Below are positions 45,569 to 60,090 of a stretch of 64,000 nucleotides of DNA, in pieces. The translations under genes and the position numbers were made by a program. The notes beneath the pieces were generated by a model. It worked only from the letters and a program-made list of their open reading frames with translations. It was not told the origin of the DNA and did not search any database. The stretch is taken from NCBI RefSeq assembly GCF_006335115.1, contig NZ_VDMJ01000016.1, positions 1 to 64,000 on the forward strand, written 5' to 3'. Positions within the stretch are counted from its first letter, which is position 1; every line of letters starts with the position of its first letter. The stretch is from Streptomyces sp. NP160 (lineage in GTDB: Bacteria > Actinomycetota > Actinomycetes > Actinomycetales > Quadrisphaeraceae).

Positions 45569-45718
45569 GCCCGGGCGCCGGGAACGCTCCCGTCCCCAGT
45601 CCTGGGGGTGGCGGCGCCCGGCTCGTGGCGGTTTGGGTGGATCTCGGGCGGGGTACCGTTGCCCTCGGACGTCAGCGGCACAGGTGCCGCTGCCAGCACT
45701 CGCGTCGGGGGGCGGAGG

Positions 45719-47404
45719 GTGACGGCGACCAGGGTCGTGCGCACGGTGGTCACCACCGCCCTTCTCTCCTGCGCGATCGCCGCCCTGTGGCTGCTCCTCG
45801 CGGCGCCCACCGCCTCGGCGTCCGGACGTGACGACGCTGCTCCGTCCCTGGTCGCGGGCGCCGTGGAGGACCTGGACGACGTCGTCGGCGGCCTCTCGGG
45901 TGGCGGCTCCGGCGCGGCCGGCGCCGACCCAGCGGTCGAGGAGCCGGCGCCCGCGGCCGAGCAGCCGGCGGAGCCCGCTGACCAGGTGGAGCCCGCCGAG
46001 CAGGCGGAGCCCGCTGACCAGGCGGAGCCCGCTGAGCAGGCGGAGCCTGCTGACGAGGCTCGTCCTGCGGGCGGCGGAGCCGACCGCGGCTCCGCGGAGC
46101 CCGTCCAGGAGGACCCGGTGGTGCGCGTCCTCGACGCCGTCGACGAAGCGGTGCCGGCGGTGGAGCCCGTGACCGAGGCGGCGCAGCCGGTCGTGTCCGC
46201 TGCGGAGCCCGTCGCCGCGTCTGCAGCCCCGGTCACCGAGCCCGTCGTCGAGGCCGCCGAGCCGGCGCTGGAGCCGGCGCTCTCCGAGGTGGTCGAGCCG
46301 GTCGCGGCTCCCGTCTCGCGCGCCGTGGAGCCCGCCGCGCAGGTCGTCGAGGCGGTCGTCGAGCCGGTCGTGCAGGCCGTCGACGTGCCTGCGGTCGCTC
46401 CTGTCGCAGAGGCCGTCAGCCCAGTGGTCGAGGACGTCGCCGCCGCCGTCGTCGCCCCGGCGGCGGAGGTCGCCGCCCCGCTCACCGAGCAGGTCGCCGC
46501 GCCCGTCGTCCAGGCCGCGTCGACCGCCGCCCGCCCGGTCGTCGAGGACGTCGCAGCCCCTGCCGCAGCCCCGGTCGCAGCGGTCGTCAGCGCTGCCTCG
46601 GACGGCGCGGTGGCGCCCGTGGTCCAGCCCGCCGCCCAGGTCGCCGCTCCCGTGGTGAGCGGTGTGGTGGTGCCCGTGGTCGAACCCGTGGCCCGGTCCG
46701 CGGGCGCTGCCGTCGACGGGACCGCCAGCACCGCGGTGCCAGCCGTCGGCGCTGCAGCCGCTCCCGTCGTGAGGTCGGTCGCCGCTGCCGCGGTGGAGCC
46801 GGTGGTCGCCCGCGCGGTGGCCCCCGTCCTCGCCGCGGTCCCAGCGGCCCCGGCTGCGGCCGGGGTGCCGGCGACCGCCGACGTCGTCCGCACCCCCTCG
46901 GCGGAGGTGCCGTCGCTCGTGCGCCCCGCGCTGCCGGCCCGAGCGCTCGTGGTGGGGCCGCCCGCTGACGCGCCCGTCCCTGCGCCGGCAGCGGCGTCCT
47001 CCGCGCCTGCGGTGGTCGAGCCCCTCGGCCCCCCGGTGCCCGCGCCGTCCGCGGCCGCCACCCCGGCGCCGCTGGCCCTGACCTCCGCCGCCTCCAGCGA
47101 CGCCGCCGCGCCCCGGACCTCACCCGCATCCCACGCCGCCGCGGCCACCAGCGCCGACCGCGGCGGGGCCACGGGCGGCACCGTCCCGGGTGACGGCGCA
47201 CCCGCGTCACCGGTGGGTCCGCGCGCGGCGGTCGCCGCCAGCGCCAGCGCGTCCCTGACCGCCTCCAGCGCTGGTCACGACGGCCCGAGCGCGGTCCTGC
47301 CGGCCTTCCTCGTCCTCGCCGCGGCCGGTCTCACCGTCCGCGGCCTGGCCCGCTCCGCGCGGCCCTCGCAGCGCGCGTCGCTGCCCCTCGTCCGACCCGC
47401 CTGA
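45719..47404 (+). CDS. Val/Pro/Ala/Glu-rich repetitive surface protein
   Basis: I do not recognise a family. From GTG 45719 the protein is 561 residues, with a signal peptide (RVVRTVVTTALLSCAIAALWLLLAAPTASA). An acidic Pro/Glu/Ala region contains about four AEPAxQ(V/A)EP units (about 80-115), followed by some 250 residues of degenerate PVVEPV/AAPVV repeats. A C-terminal membrane segment (VLPAFLVLAAAGLTV) and basic tail retain it in the membrane. It looks like an extended wall-spanning stalk. Ribosome-site spacing is poor; GTG 45608 is the only other in-frame start. A TACCGT at about 45655 may be the -10. Confidence 0.68.
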   Translation: MTATRVVRTVVTTALLSCAIAALWLLLAAPTASASGRDDAAPSLVAGAVEDLDDVVGGLSGGGSGAAGADPAVEEPAPAAEQPAEPADQVEPAEQAEPADQAEPAEQAEPADEARPAGGGADRGSAEPVQEDPVVRVLDAVDEAVPAVEPVTEAAQPVVSAAEPVAASAAPVTEPVVEAAEPALEPALSEVVEPVAAPVSRAVEPAAQVVEAVVEPVVQAVDVPAVAPVAEAVSPVVEDVAAAVVAPAAEVAAPLTEQVAAPVVQAASTAARPVVEDVAAPAAAPVAAVVSAASDGAVAPVVQPAAQVAAPVVSGVVVPVVEPVARSAGAAVDGTASTAVPAVGAAAAPVVRSVAAAAVEPVVARAVAPVLAAVPAAPAAAGVPATADVVRTPSAEVPSLVRPALPARALVVGPPADAPVPAPAAASSAPAVVEPLGPPVPAPSAAATPAPLALTSAASSDAAAPRTSPASHAAAATSADRGGATGGTVPGDGAPASPVGPRAAVAASASASLTASSAGHDGPSAVLPAFLVLAAAGLTVRGLARSARPSQRASLPLVRPA

Positions 47405-47510
47405 CCCCTCTCCCTCCCGACGGCTGCGGCCGCCGCTGCCCAGCAGCGCGTCCGCTGCGGACCTCGCCGCTCCGCGCCCCGGTCGAACCTCGGAAGAGAG
47501 AAGCCCCGCC

Positions 47511-48701
47511 ATGCTCGTGCGCACCTGCCTGCGCGCGCTGGCCGCCCTGCTCGTGTCGACGGTGGTCCTGGTCCCAGGACCACCCGCGACCGCGCACCCG
47601 GTCCCCGCCGCAGCCGCACCACCCGCAGCGACCTCCACCAGCACCACCGCCACCACCACCGCGCCGTCGACCGCCCCGGTCGGCCTTCCGGCAGCTCCGC
47701 CCAGCGGCGCGGCCCCCTACGTCGTGCGCTCCGGCGACACGCTCACCGGCATCGCCCGCGCCACGGGCACACCCGGAGGGTGGCCCGAGCTCTTCGCCGC
47801 CAACCGCGACGTGCTCGGCCCCTCACCGGACCTCCTCCGCGTCGGCACGGTGCTCGTCCTGCCCGGGACCTCCCCCGCGGGCGCGCCGGCCGCGCAGCCG
47901 TCAGCGCAGCCCGCCGCGGTCACCACCTACGAGGTCGCCCCGGGCGACTCGCTGCGCTCAGTGGCGTCCCGCCTCGGCGTCGACGGCGGGTGGCCCGCCC
48001 TCTACGCGGCCAACCGGTCAGCGGTCGGGCCCGACCCCGACCGCCTCGCCGTCGGCGCGCGGCTCGTCGTGCCCGCCGCGGTGGCGTCTGCGCCCGCAGG
48101 GCCCGCGCCCGGGACGTCGGCCGCTCCCGGTGCCGGAGCGGGCACCCGCCTCGGTGCTGCGCCCGAGACCCCCCGGTCCGCACCCGGAGCGGCACCTCCG
48201 GCCTCCAGCGGTGCGGGTGCGGACGGCGCCGTGTCGAGCGCCGTGCCCGCCTGGGTGACGTGGCCGATGGGTCTGGTCGCGGCCCTGGCCGCGCTCGTGC
48301 TCGTCGGCGACCCGCTCCTGGCGCTGGTCCGCCGCCGCACCGCTGCCCGCAGCGCCCGCACGGCGGCCGCCGCGCCCGCAGGTGCGACGGCAGCGGCGAG
48401 CGCCGTCCAGCGGCCCGGTCTCAGCCTGCTGCAGCGGGTCGACGACGTCGGCCGGCCCGAGGAGGGGGAGGCGACCGGCCCGTGCGTCCACGTGGAGCGG
48501 CACCCGACCCTCCTGGTCAGCTACAGCCCCGCCGACGACCTGGTGCTCCTCCTGCTCCCGGAGGAGCACCGCGTGGACGACGTGCTGCAGGTGGCGCGCG
48601 TCGCGCTGCCCGAGCGCGCCTACCGAGCCGTGGAGCGCCGCCTCCCCACGCCGCTGCGCCGCCCGGCGCCCGGACCGGTCAGCGCTCGGTGGGCGGGGTG
48701 A
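47511..48701 (+). CDS. Membrane-anchored double-LysM protein
   Basis: The 396-residue protein has a signal peptide, a Thr/Ala/Pro linker and two LysM modules: YVVRSGDTLTGIARATGTPGGWPELFAANRD (about 69-117) and YEVAPGDSLRSVASRLGVDGGWPALYAANR (about 138-186). LysM binds peptidoglycan. A membrane segment near 250-272 is followed by a cytosolic part with LLVSYSPADDLVLLLLPEE of unknown function. The ATG follows AGAGAGAAG. It forms a pair with the upstream surface protein. Its last 23 bases overlap the 3' end of the opposing regulator gene. Confidence 0.85.
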   Translation: MLVRTCLRALAALLVSTVVLVPGPPATAHPVPAAAAPPAATSTSTTATTTAPSTAPVGLPAAPPSGAAPYVVRSGDTLTGIARATGTPGGWPELFAANRDVLGPSPDLLRVGTVLVLPGTSPAGAPAAQPSAQPAAVTTYEVAPGDSLRSVASRLGVDGGWPALYAANRSAVGPDPDRLAVGARLVVPAAVASAPAGPAPGTSAAPGAGAGTRLGAAPETPRSAPGAAPPASSGAGADGAVSSAVPAWVTWPMGLVAALAALVLVGDPLLALVRRRTAARSARTAAAAPAGATAAASAVQRPGLSLLQRVDDVGRPEEGEATGPCVHVERHPTLLVSYSPADDLVLLLLPEEHRVDDVLQVARVALPERAYRAVERRLPTPLRRPAPGPVSARWAG

Positions 48702-49158
48702 CGCGGCGGGCGCTCGCGGCGCGCAGCGACTCCACCAGGGCCGCCACGTGACGGCGGTCGTCCGGGCTGAGGTCAGCCAGGCCGGCGACGATCACCGCGG
48801 TGTCCGGCTCGACGCCGACCGTGCCCCGCGACAGCCCCGTGGCCTCGGCCACGGCTGCCTGCAGCACGGACAGCGGCAGCTCCAGCGCTGCGGCGAGCGC
48901 CTCCAGCCGGCTGGGGCGTGGTGCGCGCTGGATCGGCGTGGTGGCCAGGTGGTGGACCGTCGAGCGGGGCAGGCCGCTGCGGCGGGCGACGTCCCCGTAG
49001 GACCAGCCGCGCTCGCGCATCCGCTCCTGCAGGAGGCGCTGCACCGCGCCCGGTGGTCCCTCGAGGGGGCCCGTCGGCCCGTCGGCCCGGGACGCGGCGT
49101 CCTGCTCGGCGGCGGGTCGAGCCGCCGGCTGCGTCGGGGGCTCCGGATGCGTGCTCAC
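48679..49158 (-). CDS. Cro/C1-type helix-turn-helix regulator
   Basis: The 159-residue protein has an HTH in AVQRLLQERMRERGWSYGDVARRSGLPRSTVHHLAT, continuing through RLEALAAALELPLSVLQAAVAEATG, typical of XRE DNA-binding domains. A C-terminal DLSPDDRRHVAALVESLRA helix may dimerise. The N-terminal about 45 residues are disordered. I use GTG 49158; GTG 49161 and a TTG at 49272 are alternatives. A 23-base palindrome lies between its promoter and that of the peptide gene. It probably represses both itself and the peptide. Confidence 0.82.
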   Translation of the reverse strand: MSTHPEPPTQPAARPAAEQDAASRADGPTGPLEGPPGAVQRLLQERMRERGWSYGDVARRSGLPRSTVHHLATTPIQRAPRPSRLEALAAALELPLSVLQAAVAEATGLSRGTVGVEPDTAVIVAGLADLSPDDRRHVAALVESLRAASARRVTPPTER

Positions 49159-49263
49159 CACCACTGGTCCGCCGTCCTCCCGCTCGCTGCCCGCCCCCCG
49201 ATCCCGGAAGTCCACCACAACCCGGGGCGGTGCCGGGGGTTGTGCTCCCGAGGAACGCCGCCT

Positions 49264-49286
49264 ACTGTACAAGTTACTTGGACAGT
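49264..49286. promoter_or_regulatory. 23-bp operator palindrome with divergent promoter elements
   Basis: ACTGTACAAGT, one T, then ACTTGGACAGT form an inverted repeat with a single mismatch per arm of 11. On the minus strand it contains TACAGT, a -10-like hexamer for the regulator gene. On the plus strand it contains TTGGAC, a -35-like hexamer for the peptide gene. Its AT-rich content stands out from the surroundings. It is the likely binding site of the adjacent Cro/C1 regulator. Confidence 0.65.
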
Positions 49287-49394
49287 TCGTTCAAGGGTTT
49301 CGGTCGATCGGTCGAGTCGGACGCTCAGCAAGGGGGGGTGTCTCGAAGGACCGGCCGGAGCCTGGAGCACCACAGAGGCACAAGGAGACGTGCG

Positions 49395-49715
49395 ATGACT
49401 GTTCTCACTGCAGCCGACCTGGCTCTCGAGTCCGTCGAGATGCTCCCGACCCGCGAGACGCTCAACGCGTACAGCGGGGGCCACGGGTCGCTGATCTCCG
49501 TCGGCGACGTCCTCAGCGGCAACGACGTGCTGAGCGACAACGACGGCAACTTCAGCGGCAACCTCAACGGCAACTTCAGCGGCAACGAGTACACGGACAA
49601 CTCCGACAACTCCGTCGACAACTCCGACAGCTCCACCAACGACTCGTACAACGACTACGGCCACGGCGGCTGGGGCGGCGGCCACGGCGACTGGCACGAC
49701 GACTGCACGTGGTGA
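49395..49715 (+). CDS. Small Gly/Asn/Asp/Ser-rich peptide, candidate RiPP precursor
   Basis: I do not recognise this 106-residue protein. Residues 1-32 (MTVLTAADLALESVEMLPTR and onward to SGGHGS) look like a leader. The rest is low-complexity: GN, DN, SGN and NSDN units, including a doubled GNFSGN encoded by an exact 18-base repeat (49545-49562 and 49569-49586). It ends in an aromatic, His/Asp-rich tail HGGWGGGHGDWHDDCTW with a single Cys. AAGGAGA eight bases before the ATG is a strong ribosome site. There is no hydrophobic signal peptide. A strong terminator follows, then a PqqD/M50 gene. Confidence 0.8.
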   Translation: MTVLTAADLALESVEMLPTRETLNAYSGGHGSLISVGDVLSGNDVLSDNDGNFSGNLNGNFSGNEYTDNSDNSVDNSDSSTNDSYNDYGHGGWGGGHGDWHDDCTW

Positions 49716-49734
49716 CCCGTCGCGCCTGAGCGGT

Positions 49735-49773
49735 CGGAAGGGCCGCCCCCGGTGCCCGGGGGCGGCCCTTCCG
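49735..49773 (+). terminator. Terminator/attenuator after the peptide gene
   Basis: Perfect 18-base arms (49735-49752 and 49756-49773) close on a TGC loop, 20 bases after the peptide stop and 41 bases before the M50 gene. Partial read-through would make the peptide much more abundant than its processing protein. Confidence 0.85.
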
Positions 49774-49813
49774 CACGTCGGGGGTCGACGACGACGAGTG
49801 AGCAGGAGGCGGC

Positions 49814-51202
49814 ATGACCGCGCAGCTGGAGCACCCCGACCTCGCCGGGCCGTCCGCGACCCGCCGGCCGCCGGCCCGGGCCGCCGGGCTGGAGCTGCTC
49901 GGCGAGCTCCGCGGCTCCGGCTCGCAGCGGCCGCCGGGCCTGGTGCGCCGCGACGACGGGCAGGTGCTGCAGCTGACGCCGCTGGCCTACCGGGTGCTCG
50001 CGGCGCTGGACGGCGTCCGCACGTCCGCCGACGTCGCCGCGGAGGTCTCGCAGGGCGGCGGCGACGAGGTCGACGCAGCGGGCGTCCGCTTCCTCGTGGC
50101 GAGGAAGCTGGCGCCGCTCGGCCTGCTCGACGACGAGCGGTCGACCCCGCCGCCGCGCGCCGACCCCCTGCTGGCGCTGCGGGCCCGCACGCCGCTGCTG
50201 GGCCCGCGAGCCGTGGGGGCGGTGGCGCGGGTCCTGCAGCCGCTGTTCCGCCTGCCGGTGGTGCTCGCCGCCGTGGCGGCCCTGGCGCTGCTCGACGTGT
50301 GGCTGCTGGCGGTGCACGGGCTCGGCGGGGCGCTCGGGGCCGTGGTGCGCGACCCAGCGCTCGCGCTGGCGGTGGTCGGCACGGCGGTGGCCGCGGCGCT
50401 CTTCCACGAGTGCGGGCACGCGGCCGGCTGCCGGTTCAGCGGCGCGCGGCCCGGTGCGGTCGGCCTGGGGCTCTACCTCGTCTACCCGGCCTTCTACACC
50501 GACGTCAACGACGCCTACCGCCTCGGGCGGGCCGGGCGGCTGCGCACCGACCTCGGCGGGCTGTACTTCCACACCCTCGCTGTGCTGGCCCTCGGCGGGG
50601 CCCACGCGGTCACCGGCGCCGAGTGGTTGCTGCTCGCGGTGCTGGTCATCCAGCTGGGCATGCTGGAGCAGCTGCTGCCGCTGGTGCGCTACGACGGCTA
50701 CCACGTGCTGGCCGACCTCGTCGGCGTGCCCGACCTCTTCGCCCGCATCGGCCCTGTGCTGCGCCACGCGGCCGGGCGGGGGTCGGGCCGCGACCCCCGC
50801 GTGGTGGGCCTCAAGCGCTGGGTCCGGGTGGTGGTGACCGGGTGGGTCGCCGTCGTCGTCCCCTTCCTCGTGGTGGCCCTCTCGCTGCTGCTGTGGCACC
50901 TGCCCCGGCTGGTCGCAGCCCTCGGGGGAGCGGGGCTGGCGGAGGCGGGAGCGGCTGCGCGCGCCTTCGAGGCCGGCCAGGCGGCCGCCGGCACCGCCGC
51001 CGCCCTGAACGCGGGCCTCCTGCTGCTCGTGGTCGGGGGTGTCCTCTGCGTGCTCGGGCGCGTCCTGCGGGCGGCATCCCGGGCGGCGCGGCGCTGGTCC
51101 GCGGGGCACCGCCGCCGCCGCACCTGCCTGGTCGCCGCCGCGGTGGCGCTCACCGCCGCGCTGCTCACCGGGTGGCTGGCCTCCGGGCAGCTCGTCGTCT
51201 GA
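49814..51202 (+). CDS. PqqD-like plus M50 zinc metalloprotease membrane protein
   Basis: The 462-residue protein has an N-terminal PqqD/RRE-like domain (about 26-108), with GLVRRDDGQVLQLTPLAYRVLAAL and RTSADVAAEV. Several membrane segments follow. The zinc site H198-E-C-G-H202 lies in the segment ALFHECGHAAGCRFSG. A second motif, VRYDGYHVLADL (D294, H297), supplies the third ligand region of M50 site-2-type proteases. PqqD-like domains bind RiPP leader peptides, and M50 proteins of this architecture occur in RiPP loci as peptidases or export proteins. I infer that it binds and cleaves or exports the adjoining peptide. Confidence 0.85.
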   Translation: MTAQLEHPDLAGPSATRRPPARAAGLELLGELRGSGSQRPPGLVRRDDGQVLQLTPLAYRVLAALDGVRTSADVAAEVSQGGGDEVDAAGVRFLVARKLAPLGLLDDERSTPPPRADPLLALRARTPLLGPRAVGAVARVLQPLFRLPVVLAAVAALALLDVWLLAVHGLGGALGAVVRDPALALAVVGTAVAAALFHECGHAAGCRFSGARPGAVGLGLYLVYPAFYTDVNDAYRLGRAGRLRTDLGGLYFHTLAVLALGGAHAVTGAEWLLLAVLVIQLGMLEQLLPLVRYDGYHVLADLVGVPDLFARIGPVLRHAAGRGSGRDPRVVGLKRWVRVVVTGWVAVVVPFLVVALSLLLWHLPRLVAALGGAGLAEAGAAARAFEAGQAAAGTAAALNAGLLLLVVGGVLCVLGRVLRAASRAARRWSAGHRRRRTCLVAAAVALTAALLTGWLASGQLVV

Positions 51203-51222
51203 GGAGCGCCCACACTGGCGGG

Positions 51223-59259: not shown

Positions 59260-60090
59260 ATGGAGAGCAACAACCCGGCGCTGCGCAACGCGCCGCAGTT
59301 CAAGCGCGGCGGCTACGCGGGCTTCGACGCCACCCCTCGCGGTGGTGCGAGCACCGCCTCGTACGGCCAGCCGACGCTGGAGGAGATGTACTCCGCACCC
59401 TCGGCGGGACCCGCCGAGACCGGGCGGATGACCTATGACGACGTCGTGATGCGCGCGGGCATGACGCTCGGCACCGTCGTCCTGCTCGGCGCCTTCAACT
59501 ACTTCCTCTTCAGCCCGCTGCTGATGATCGTCGGCGTGCTCGGCGGTCTGGTGCTGGGCCTGGTCAACTCGTTCAAGCGCGAGCCCAGCCCCGTGCTGAT
59601 CCTCCTCTACGCCGCGCTGCAGGGCCTGTTCATCGGTGGCCTCAGCCGCGTCATCGACATGCAGCTCGAAGCTCGCAACCTCGGTGCGGTGTCCATCCAG
59701 GCGGTCATCGCCACCGTCGCGGTGTTCGCCGTGATGCTCGTCCTGTACCGCAGCGGGGCCGTGCGGGCCACGCCGAAGTTCCGCCGGATCCTCATCGGCG
59801 CGGTGCTCGGCTACGCCGTCTTCTGCCTCGTCAACTTCGTGTTCGCGATGTTCGGCAACGGCCTGAACCTCTGGGCCGGTGCTCTGGGCCTCGCGGTCGG
59901 CGCCATCGGCGCGGTCCTCGCGTCGCTCTCGCTCGTGCTCGACTTCGACTTCATCGAGACGGGCGTCAAGAACGGCATCCCGCAGCGCTACGCCTGGACC
60001 GCCGCGTTCGGCCTCACGGTCACGCTGGTCTGGCTGTACATCGAGCTGCTGCGCATCCTGTCGATCATCCGCTCCATGGCGGGCGACTGA
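59260..60090 (+). CDS. Bax inhibitor-1/YccA family membrane protein
   Basis: The 276-residue protein has a 55-residue Gly/Pro-rich cytosolic N-terminus and then seven hydrophobic segments. It matches the actinobacterial branch of the BI-1 family: MTYDDVVMRAGMTLGTV, LLYAALQGLFIGGLSRV, LNLWAGALGLAVGAIGAVLASLSLVLDFDFIE and NGIPQRYAWTAAFGL with acidic residues thought to gate ions. BI-1 proteins are proposed pH-dependent calcium leak channels. ATG follows GGGAGGA. The gene is monocistronic with an AT-rich promoter patch. Confidence 0.92.
   Translation: MESNNPALRNAPQFKRGGYAGFDATPRGGASTASYGQPTLEEMYSAPSAGPAETGRMTYDDVVMRAGMTLGTVVLLGAFNYFLFSPLLMIVGVLGGLVLGLVNSFKREPSPVLILLYAALQGLFIGGLSRVIDMQLEARNLGAVSIQAVIATVAVFAVMLVLYRSGAVRATPKFRRILIGAVLGYAVFCLVNFVFAMFGNGLNLWAGALGLAVGAIGAVLASLSLVLDFDFIETGVKNGIPQRYAWTAAFGLTVTLVWLYIELLRILSIIRSMAGD

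Follow-up and report, generated by a model that had tools for sequence, protein, structure and literature searches.

Docking of a precursor leader to a RiPP recognition element (RRE) is usually taken as a sign of modification chemistry in the pathways of ribosomally synthesized and post-translationally modified peptides (RiPPs), and a pathway without an obvious modifying enzyme would be unusually simple. Here, we analysed a stretch of 64 000 nucleotides (the window; contig NZ_VDMJ01000016.1, positions 1 to 64 000) from Streptomyces sp. NP160, in which a gene for a 106-residue peptide (P0001) stands beside a Cro/C1-type (XRE) regulator gene and is followed by a gene for a 462-residue protein (P0002), modelled as an RRE domain joined to a site-2 protease. 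The closest described systems are the actinobacterial daptides, in which MpaP (NF041824) also carries an RRE N-terminal to an intramembrane site-2 protease and several precursors per locus share a conserved leader motif, according to the accessible part of their description (PMC10036551).

In its working, the system in the window resembles the final step by which daptides mature. It is not, however, a daptide system: its leader, the C-termini of its precursors and its neighbouring enzymes all differ. In the same part of that description, the daptide leader reads ELExMEAP and the precursors end in an invariant Thr, whereas the leader here carries LLPxRExL and no C-terminal residue is invariant (Thr in 5 of 117 precursors). 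MpaB, MpaC, MpaD and MpaM were all absent from the ten window neighbours scanned with NCBIfam, other loci having been examined for recurrence only, and, unlike in daptides, an ABC-type gene lies near just 5 of 30 loci of this system. In epipeptide loci, a radical SAM epimerase gene stands next to the precursor gene, whereas none was found among the ten scanned neighbours. Like P0002 in our proposal, the epipeptide M50 intramembrane protease EpeP/LiaK/YydH (NF058609) is believed to cut a small peptide and export it, and the pearlin proteases TglG and TmoG are likewise membrane M50 enzymes for ribosomal peptides; as given in the accessible part of PMC10885120, however, the latter free a single modified residue from the C-terminus, whereas the conserved element here is an N-terminal leader. 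The RREs of TbiB1 and LynD/TruD share the βββααα fold and bind leaders; here, leader binding is predicted, the domain is fused to a site-2 protease and no modifying enzyme is recognised nearby. A literature search, which covered few subscription journals, returned no recognised description of an RRE–M50 pair without modifying enzymes.

We consider it likely that the locus encodes a minimal leader-guided maturation pathway, in which leader docking by the RRE is followed by leader removal by the site-2 protease and by release or export of an unmodified core.

Leader-bearing precursors accompany the protease

Protease homologues were gathered from 59 relatives, from 394 genomes of the class and from a named genome collection, whose loci include Gandjariella, Amycolatopsis and Pseudonocardia. 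After removal of 10 duplicates and 5 weak homologues (L010, L017 and L084–L086; E above 1e-40), 74 loci were kept, and 70 of them could be tested for a leader, L024, L030, L053 and L083 having no upstream sequence. The earlier note had staked the pairing beforehand on the peptide gene accompanying the protease gene in relatives. This is what we found: an open reading frame (ORF) with the leader motif lies upstream of the protease, on the same strand, in all 70 loci. Because the motif had come from these same loci, the leader was tested again with a position matrix whose training left out the protease cluster being tested. At scores over 16 bits, this held-out matrix gave 110 upstream same-strand matches in 471 kb, against 2 downstream and 1 on the other strand, and both downstream matches are further precursors in L011. 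Counted by locus, 69 of 70 were matched above 16 bits and all 70 above 12 bits.

The precursor set comprises 117 members (127 candidates minus 10 ORFs judged false by eye), with one precursor in 32 loci, two in 29 and three in 9. Alignments A2 and A4 hold 29 and 28 of these precursors, respectively; of the 74 proteases, 58 are in A1. The leader consensus is roughly ELxxExxELLPxRExL, with L17, P18 and R20 as the sole invariant positions across the 29 precursors of A2. Behind this conserved leader the cores are strongly divergent, and include the Gly/Asn/Asp/Ser type of the window, cores with long Ala/Asn repeats that follow LPDKEVxS, short ones of the AVNxAS type and ones containing Cys. The repeat body with one Cys that the earlier note had described is borne out by composition: 52 of the 78 residues of the window core are Gly, Asn, Asp or Ser, and the Cys is single. 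The core also holds 14 acidic residues and neither Lys nor Arg, and the precursor ends in Trp. A Pfam search of P0001 gave no match, and ten representative precursors gave no meaningful match in Pfam or NCBIfam (best chance E 0.059 and 0.026).

Among the 394 class genomes, the protease clade occurs in 58 (61 minus the weak G306, G316 and G339; E 1e-17 to 1e-16), or about one in seven, a precursor match occurs in 58 and both occur in 57. A4 matched 28 genomes and A2 38, together 58. G138 has a precursor without a protease, its contig ending 222 nt further downstream, and G160 has a protease without a precursor match, at a contig start and with an in-frame stop. From a total of 89 A2 matches, 82 lie within ∼2 kb of a protease, 3 are distant from it (G153, G184 and G392), 1 is that of G138 and 3 belong to G067, where their place is the end of a different contig, as would result from an assembly break inside the locus. 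Within the genus, two of six genomes have the protease and the same two have the peptide, the other four giving no match to it.

P0002 is modelled as an RRE–site-2 protease fusion

Site-2 proteases bind zinc, within membrane helices, through HExxH and a downstream Asp. Residues H198, E199, H202 and D294 of P0002 are invariant in all 58 aligned homologues. The AlphaFold model of P0002, built with a 58-sequence alignment (pLDDT 89.4, pTM 0.84), starts with a βββααα arrangement (strands 27–31, 42–45 and 51–54; helices 56–64, 71–82 and 88–102) followed by long helices. Residues 18–109 align with the leader-binding RREs of TbiB1 (Z 8.4), TigE (Z 7.5) and LynD (Z 7.2), and also of TruD, and residues 123–360 align with the site-2 proteases 3b4r (Z 8.0) and SpoIVFB (8vjl, Z 7.6). 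Z values near 8 are not decisive alone, and the assignment is made because of the topology, which the accessible part of PMC12710340 describes as that of RREs, and of the invariant zinc ligands.

Pfam matched no family in P0002, neither PqqD nor M50; in the 58 homologues, PqqD had no match at E ≤ 0.01 and M50 matched only 3. The PqqD/RRE-like domain and M50 HExxH protease named in the earlier note, which had also staked its reading on the N-terminal domain matching PqqD/RRE profiles, are upheld by the model, the RRE alignments, the zinc ligands and NCBIfam matches below cut-off, whereas the expected Pfam PqqD and M50 matches failed. According to the accessible part of PMC12710340, 21% of the proteins retrieved by RRE-Finder have no Pfam match at all. 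The daptide_HExxH family (NF041824) was matched by all 58 homologues, with a best E of 6.9e-34, P0002 itself reaching 97.4 bits against a cut-off of 300; for NF058609 it reached 45.6 bits against a cut-off of 225. In a protease-profile sequence search of solved structures, the best rows fell in the profile tail beyond the protease, and 3b4r had E = 2.1.

Variants of the protease were seen at a few loci. In L021, L033, L037 and L044 (4 of 74), the protease frame runs on into a MinD/ParA-like ATPase domain (KGGVGKT), forming an RRE–M50–ATPase fusion. In L018–L020, a Cys-containing, secreted-looking stretch is fused at the C-terminus of the proteases, which are long ones, and a separate ORF, similar by eye, lies near L025 and L050. 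The weaker RRE–M50 homologues of L084–L086 (tblastn E 1e-16 to 1e-13) come without a leader of the LPxRExL type; upstream of that of L084 there is another kind of small ORF, rich in Ser and Thr, whose start resembles a leader.

Search for modifying enzymes among neighbouring genes

An NCBIfam scan of the ten window neighbours at E 1e-4 found no RiPP enzyme, including no daptide enzyme and no radical SAM epimerase. We then considered 30 loci with wider flanks (492 kb), counting ORFs of at least 100 residues, a size below which the short precursors fall. The protease is the sole gene present in all 30. Next come a BTAD-type regulator and c-type precursors (7 loci each), followed by what we take to be an ABC-type gene (5 loci), then an XRE gene, a presumably aldehyde-dehydrogenase-like gene and two others (4 loci each), the rest being lineage-specific or generic genes. 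RiPPs in the strict sense carry a post-translational modification other than cleavage; no typical RiPP-modifying enzyme recurs across these loci, in which recurrence alone was examined. The absence of radical SAM, YcaO or lanthipeptide-type enzymes, which the earlier note had reported for the vicinity of the peptide gene, therefore holds for the ten window neighbours and, as far as recurrence goes, for the wider loci.

Organization of the locus and its putative operator

The divergent arrangement of regulator and peptide genes across a 23-base palindrome, as read in the earlier note, was confirmed by the ORFs, the HTH_3 match and the palindrome itself (Table 1).

Table 1. Features of the peptide locus (positions in the window)
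Feature	Position	Strand	Comment
XRE (Cro/C1) regulator gene	48679..49164	-	Divergent from peptide gene; HTH_3 E=7.2e-9
Putative operator, 23-base palindrome ACTGTACAAGTTACTTGGACAGT	49264..49286		Consensus TGTnCAA-N5-TTGGACA
Precursor peptide gene, 106 residues (P0001)	49395..49715	+	Leader score 33.2 bits, held-out matrix
Leader region, residues 1–28, motif DLALESVEMLPTRETL	49395..49478	+	Alignment A2 and held-out matrix
Core, Gly/Asn/Asp/Ser-rich repeats, then His/Asp/Trp/Cys tail	49479..49712	+	Boundary set by our choice
18-bp hairpin, possible attenuator/terminator	49735..49773	+	Between precursor and protease genes
Modelled RRE–site-2-protease fusion, 462 residues (P0002)	49814..51202	+	
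RRE (PqqD-like) domain, ∼residues 18–109	49865..50140	+	Predicted topology, structural alignment
Site-2 protease core, ∼residues 123–360	50180..50893	+	Invariant H198, E199, H202, D294; structural alignment
Presence/absence block, ∼5.65 kb	45569..51222	.	Edges inferred from ORF ends

G001, the sole relative in the genus with the locus, allowed a comparison of codons. In the leader of P0001 (codons 1–28), the changed codons comprise 3 synonymous and 0 non-synonymous ones, whereas in the core there are 4 synonymous and 5 non-synonymous changes plus an in-frame indel of 4 codons; the ribosome-binding region of the peptide gene is identical. Judged by this pattern of codon changes, the peptide ORF is a real gene. 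Low-complexity frames are common in high-GC DNA, and the peptide ORF might accordingly be a chance reading frame, the regulator and operator serving the protease only; the class-wide conservation of the leader, its synonymous-only changes and the identical ribosome-binding region contradict this reading, which we regard as having almost no chance of being right.

The 98-nt stretch between the precursor and protease genes has a folding z of −4.65 (−3.90 for its equivalent in G001), and G001 keeps the hairpin with a different loop. A promoter and terminator scan of the locus called nothing, although the hairpin, which has no T run, is strong, and an Rfam search around the locus gave 0 matches.

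The regulator has three in-frame GTG start candidates (49164, 49161 and 49158), and the start was chosen from the sequence. The palindrome pairs 10 of 11 arm positions around a central base. With up to 3 mismatches it has one match in the window, where shuffles expect none, and its 11-base core is unique in the 4.77-Mb genome. An identical stretch of 34 nt in G001 covers 22 of its 23 bases, the last one differing, and the flanking sequence has diverged on both sides. Another inverted repeat (49216–49244) was considered as a conserved element and set aside, as it is not kept in G001. In five loci of another family (L032, L036, L041, L046 and L087), an XRE homologue (45–52% identity) precedes the first precursor in divergent orientation; that of L054 is placed differently, ∼4 kb downstream of where the protease starts. 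The pattern TGTnCAA-N5-TTGGACA is common to the window and to the intergenic regions of these five loci. In seven of eight whole genomes searched it has exactly one site, at this locus (G154 has none); the pattern was composed by eye from sequences later counted, so that the informative part is the single occurrence per genome. We propose the palindrome as the putative operator of the XRE regulator. A BTAD-type regulator is found instead of the XRE one near 7 of the 30 wider loci (L011, L014, L021, L022, L118, L122 and L125), a label checked with Pfam for L014 only.

Proposed maturation pathway and alternatives

In the proposed pathway, the RRE domain of the membrane protease would bind the precursor encoded beside it by the conserved N-terminal leader, and would present this leader to the site-2 protease active site within the membrane. 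The leader would be cut at or shortly after the LPxRExL motif, and the core peptide would be released or exported without further modification by the locus. The local XRE regulator would control the operon through the palindrome, and the hairpin 3′ of the precursor gene may hold the peptide in excess over the protease. We infer leader docking and removal from the fusion of the two domains, from the strict pairing of the genes, from the leader itself and from the role of MpaP in daptides. The proposal of the earlier note, that the M50 protein recognises the peptide and cleaves or exports it, is thereby supported. The mature peptide probably has its role extracellularly or on the cell surface.

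Several observations weigh against this pathway. The window core is hydrophilic and without a membrane segment, which is unusual for the substrate of an intramembrane protease. Orphan leader-type precursors lie distant from the protease in three protease-positive genomes (G153:C1:5247652, G184:C1:2812679 and G392:C178:77969). A2 and A4 were built from protease-adjacent precursors, and their sensitivity is therefore partly by construction, which is not the case for their specificity. In the structural comparisons, the top VIA row for the N-terminal region of P0002 is 8hkr (Z 9.1), annotated as a methyltransferase, and a Foldseek search with the P0002 model gave only E values above 1. Finally, ABC-type and aldehyde-dehydrogenase-like genes do lie near 5 and 4 of the 30 wider loci, and a modifying enzyme may be present in single lineages or elsewhere in the genome.

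One alternative is a cut-down daptide-type or other modified-RiPP pathway, in which enzymes encoded at a distance modify the core and the protease performs the final step only. All 58 homologues match daptide_HExxH, daptide proteases are RRE–site-2 protease fusions that remove the leader (accessible part of PMC10036551), and the aldehyde-dehydrogenase-like gene would fit such a pathway. We nevertheless find it improbable, since the leader is not ELExMEAP, the C-termini vary with Thr as rare as noted above, the ten scanned window neighbours are without a daptide enzyme and, bar the protease and its opposite-strand frame, no gene exceeds 7 of the 30 wider loci. In two families the precursor has kept its XRE gene and operator, and other loci have a BTAD-type regulator instead; this could also point to a signalling device, in which the trimmed and exported peptide would be a quorum-like signal that the adjacent XRE protein senses, directly or indirectly. 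The profile matches of this protein are of the HTH type, without any peptide-binding repeat domain, up to three differing precursors per locus would be unusual for a signal and XRE genes occur at few loci, making this explanation unlikely.

Leader-guided maturation leaves the nature of the product to be refined. A self-assembling, beta-rich (amyloid-like) surface or matrix peptide, with the protease as its maturation and release step, is conceivable and somewhat doubtful. In A4, the c- and g-type cores show small residues in alternation with Ser/Asn/Gln at regular intervals, the window core consists of Gly/Asn/Asp/Ser repeats, the block described below holds LysM and surface-like genes, and one c-type precursor model has four long strands in two repeats. 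That model is of low confidence (pLDDT 54.7, pTM 0.28), however, no fibre family reached a meaningful score with the ten representatives, and the window core is acidic; the alternating patterns and the strand-rich model hint at beta-rich assembly. A secreted antibacterial, bacteriocin-like peptide appears rather doubtful. A leader with divergent cores, one to three precursors per locus and patchiness (two of six genus genomes) are typical of bacteriocin loci, the patchy distribution hinting at antagonism, and an ABC-type gene stands near some loci; yet no recurring immunity-like gene was seen in the loci examined, and a core with 14 acidic residues and no Lys or Arg speaks against such a role.

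On a broader scale, the system may represent a widespread, undescribed class of leader-guided and otherwise unmodified peptides, whose RRE serves only proteolysis and export by way of a site-2 protease; a single leader code and a single family of enzymes would mature widely differing cores, beta-rich self-assembling surface peptides among them. We put this forward tentatively, as a proposal with slightly more to prove than it has in its favour. If true, RRE–leader recognition would serve as a device for sorting peptides in general, independent of modification chemistry. The conserved unit is the precursor with the RRE–protease, and genome mining that takes modifying enzymes as its starting point would overlook it. 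Given its small size, the pair could be used to test whether an RRE can steer a site-2 protease, what the leader code is and what roles the cores play, and the operator would offer a handle on the timing of its expression.

Distribution and surroundings of the block

The family-wide leader motif, the operator sequence common to another family and a presence/absence block go beyond the earlier note. The block occupies G000 and G001 and is missing at the same site in G002–G005. Along with the genes for the peptide, the protease and the XRE regulator, it contains genes for a LysM protein and for a surface-like protein rich in Ala, Pro and Val; the surface-like gene and the double-LysM gene lie at 45608–48701. 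In G002–G005, a PadR gene is followed by a uracil-DNA-glycosylase-like gene at 1.1–1.3 kb, with room for a HAAS gene, which was not searched for, and no block gene was matched in the 12-kb stretches. Either a gain of the block in two genomes or its loss in four may account for this distribution. A plasmid search gave three partial matches only, covering 24–28% of the query.

Two gene families that flank the system in the window, from 59260–60090 on, recur beside it in L117 and L121, which come from genomes of another family. We take one of these families to be Bax-inhibitor-like and one to be cysteine-synthase-like. Their recurrence hints at an old shared location.

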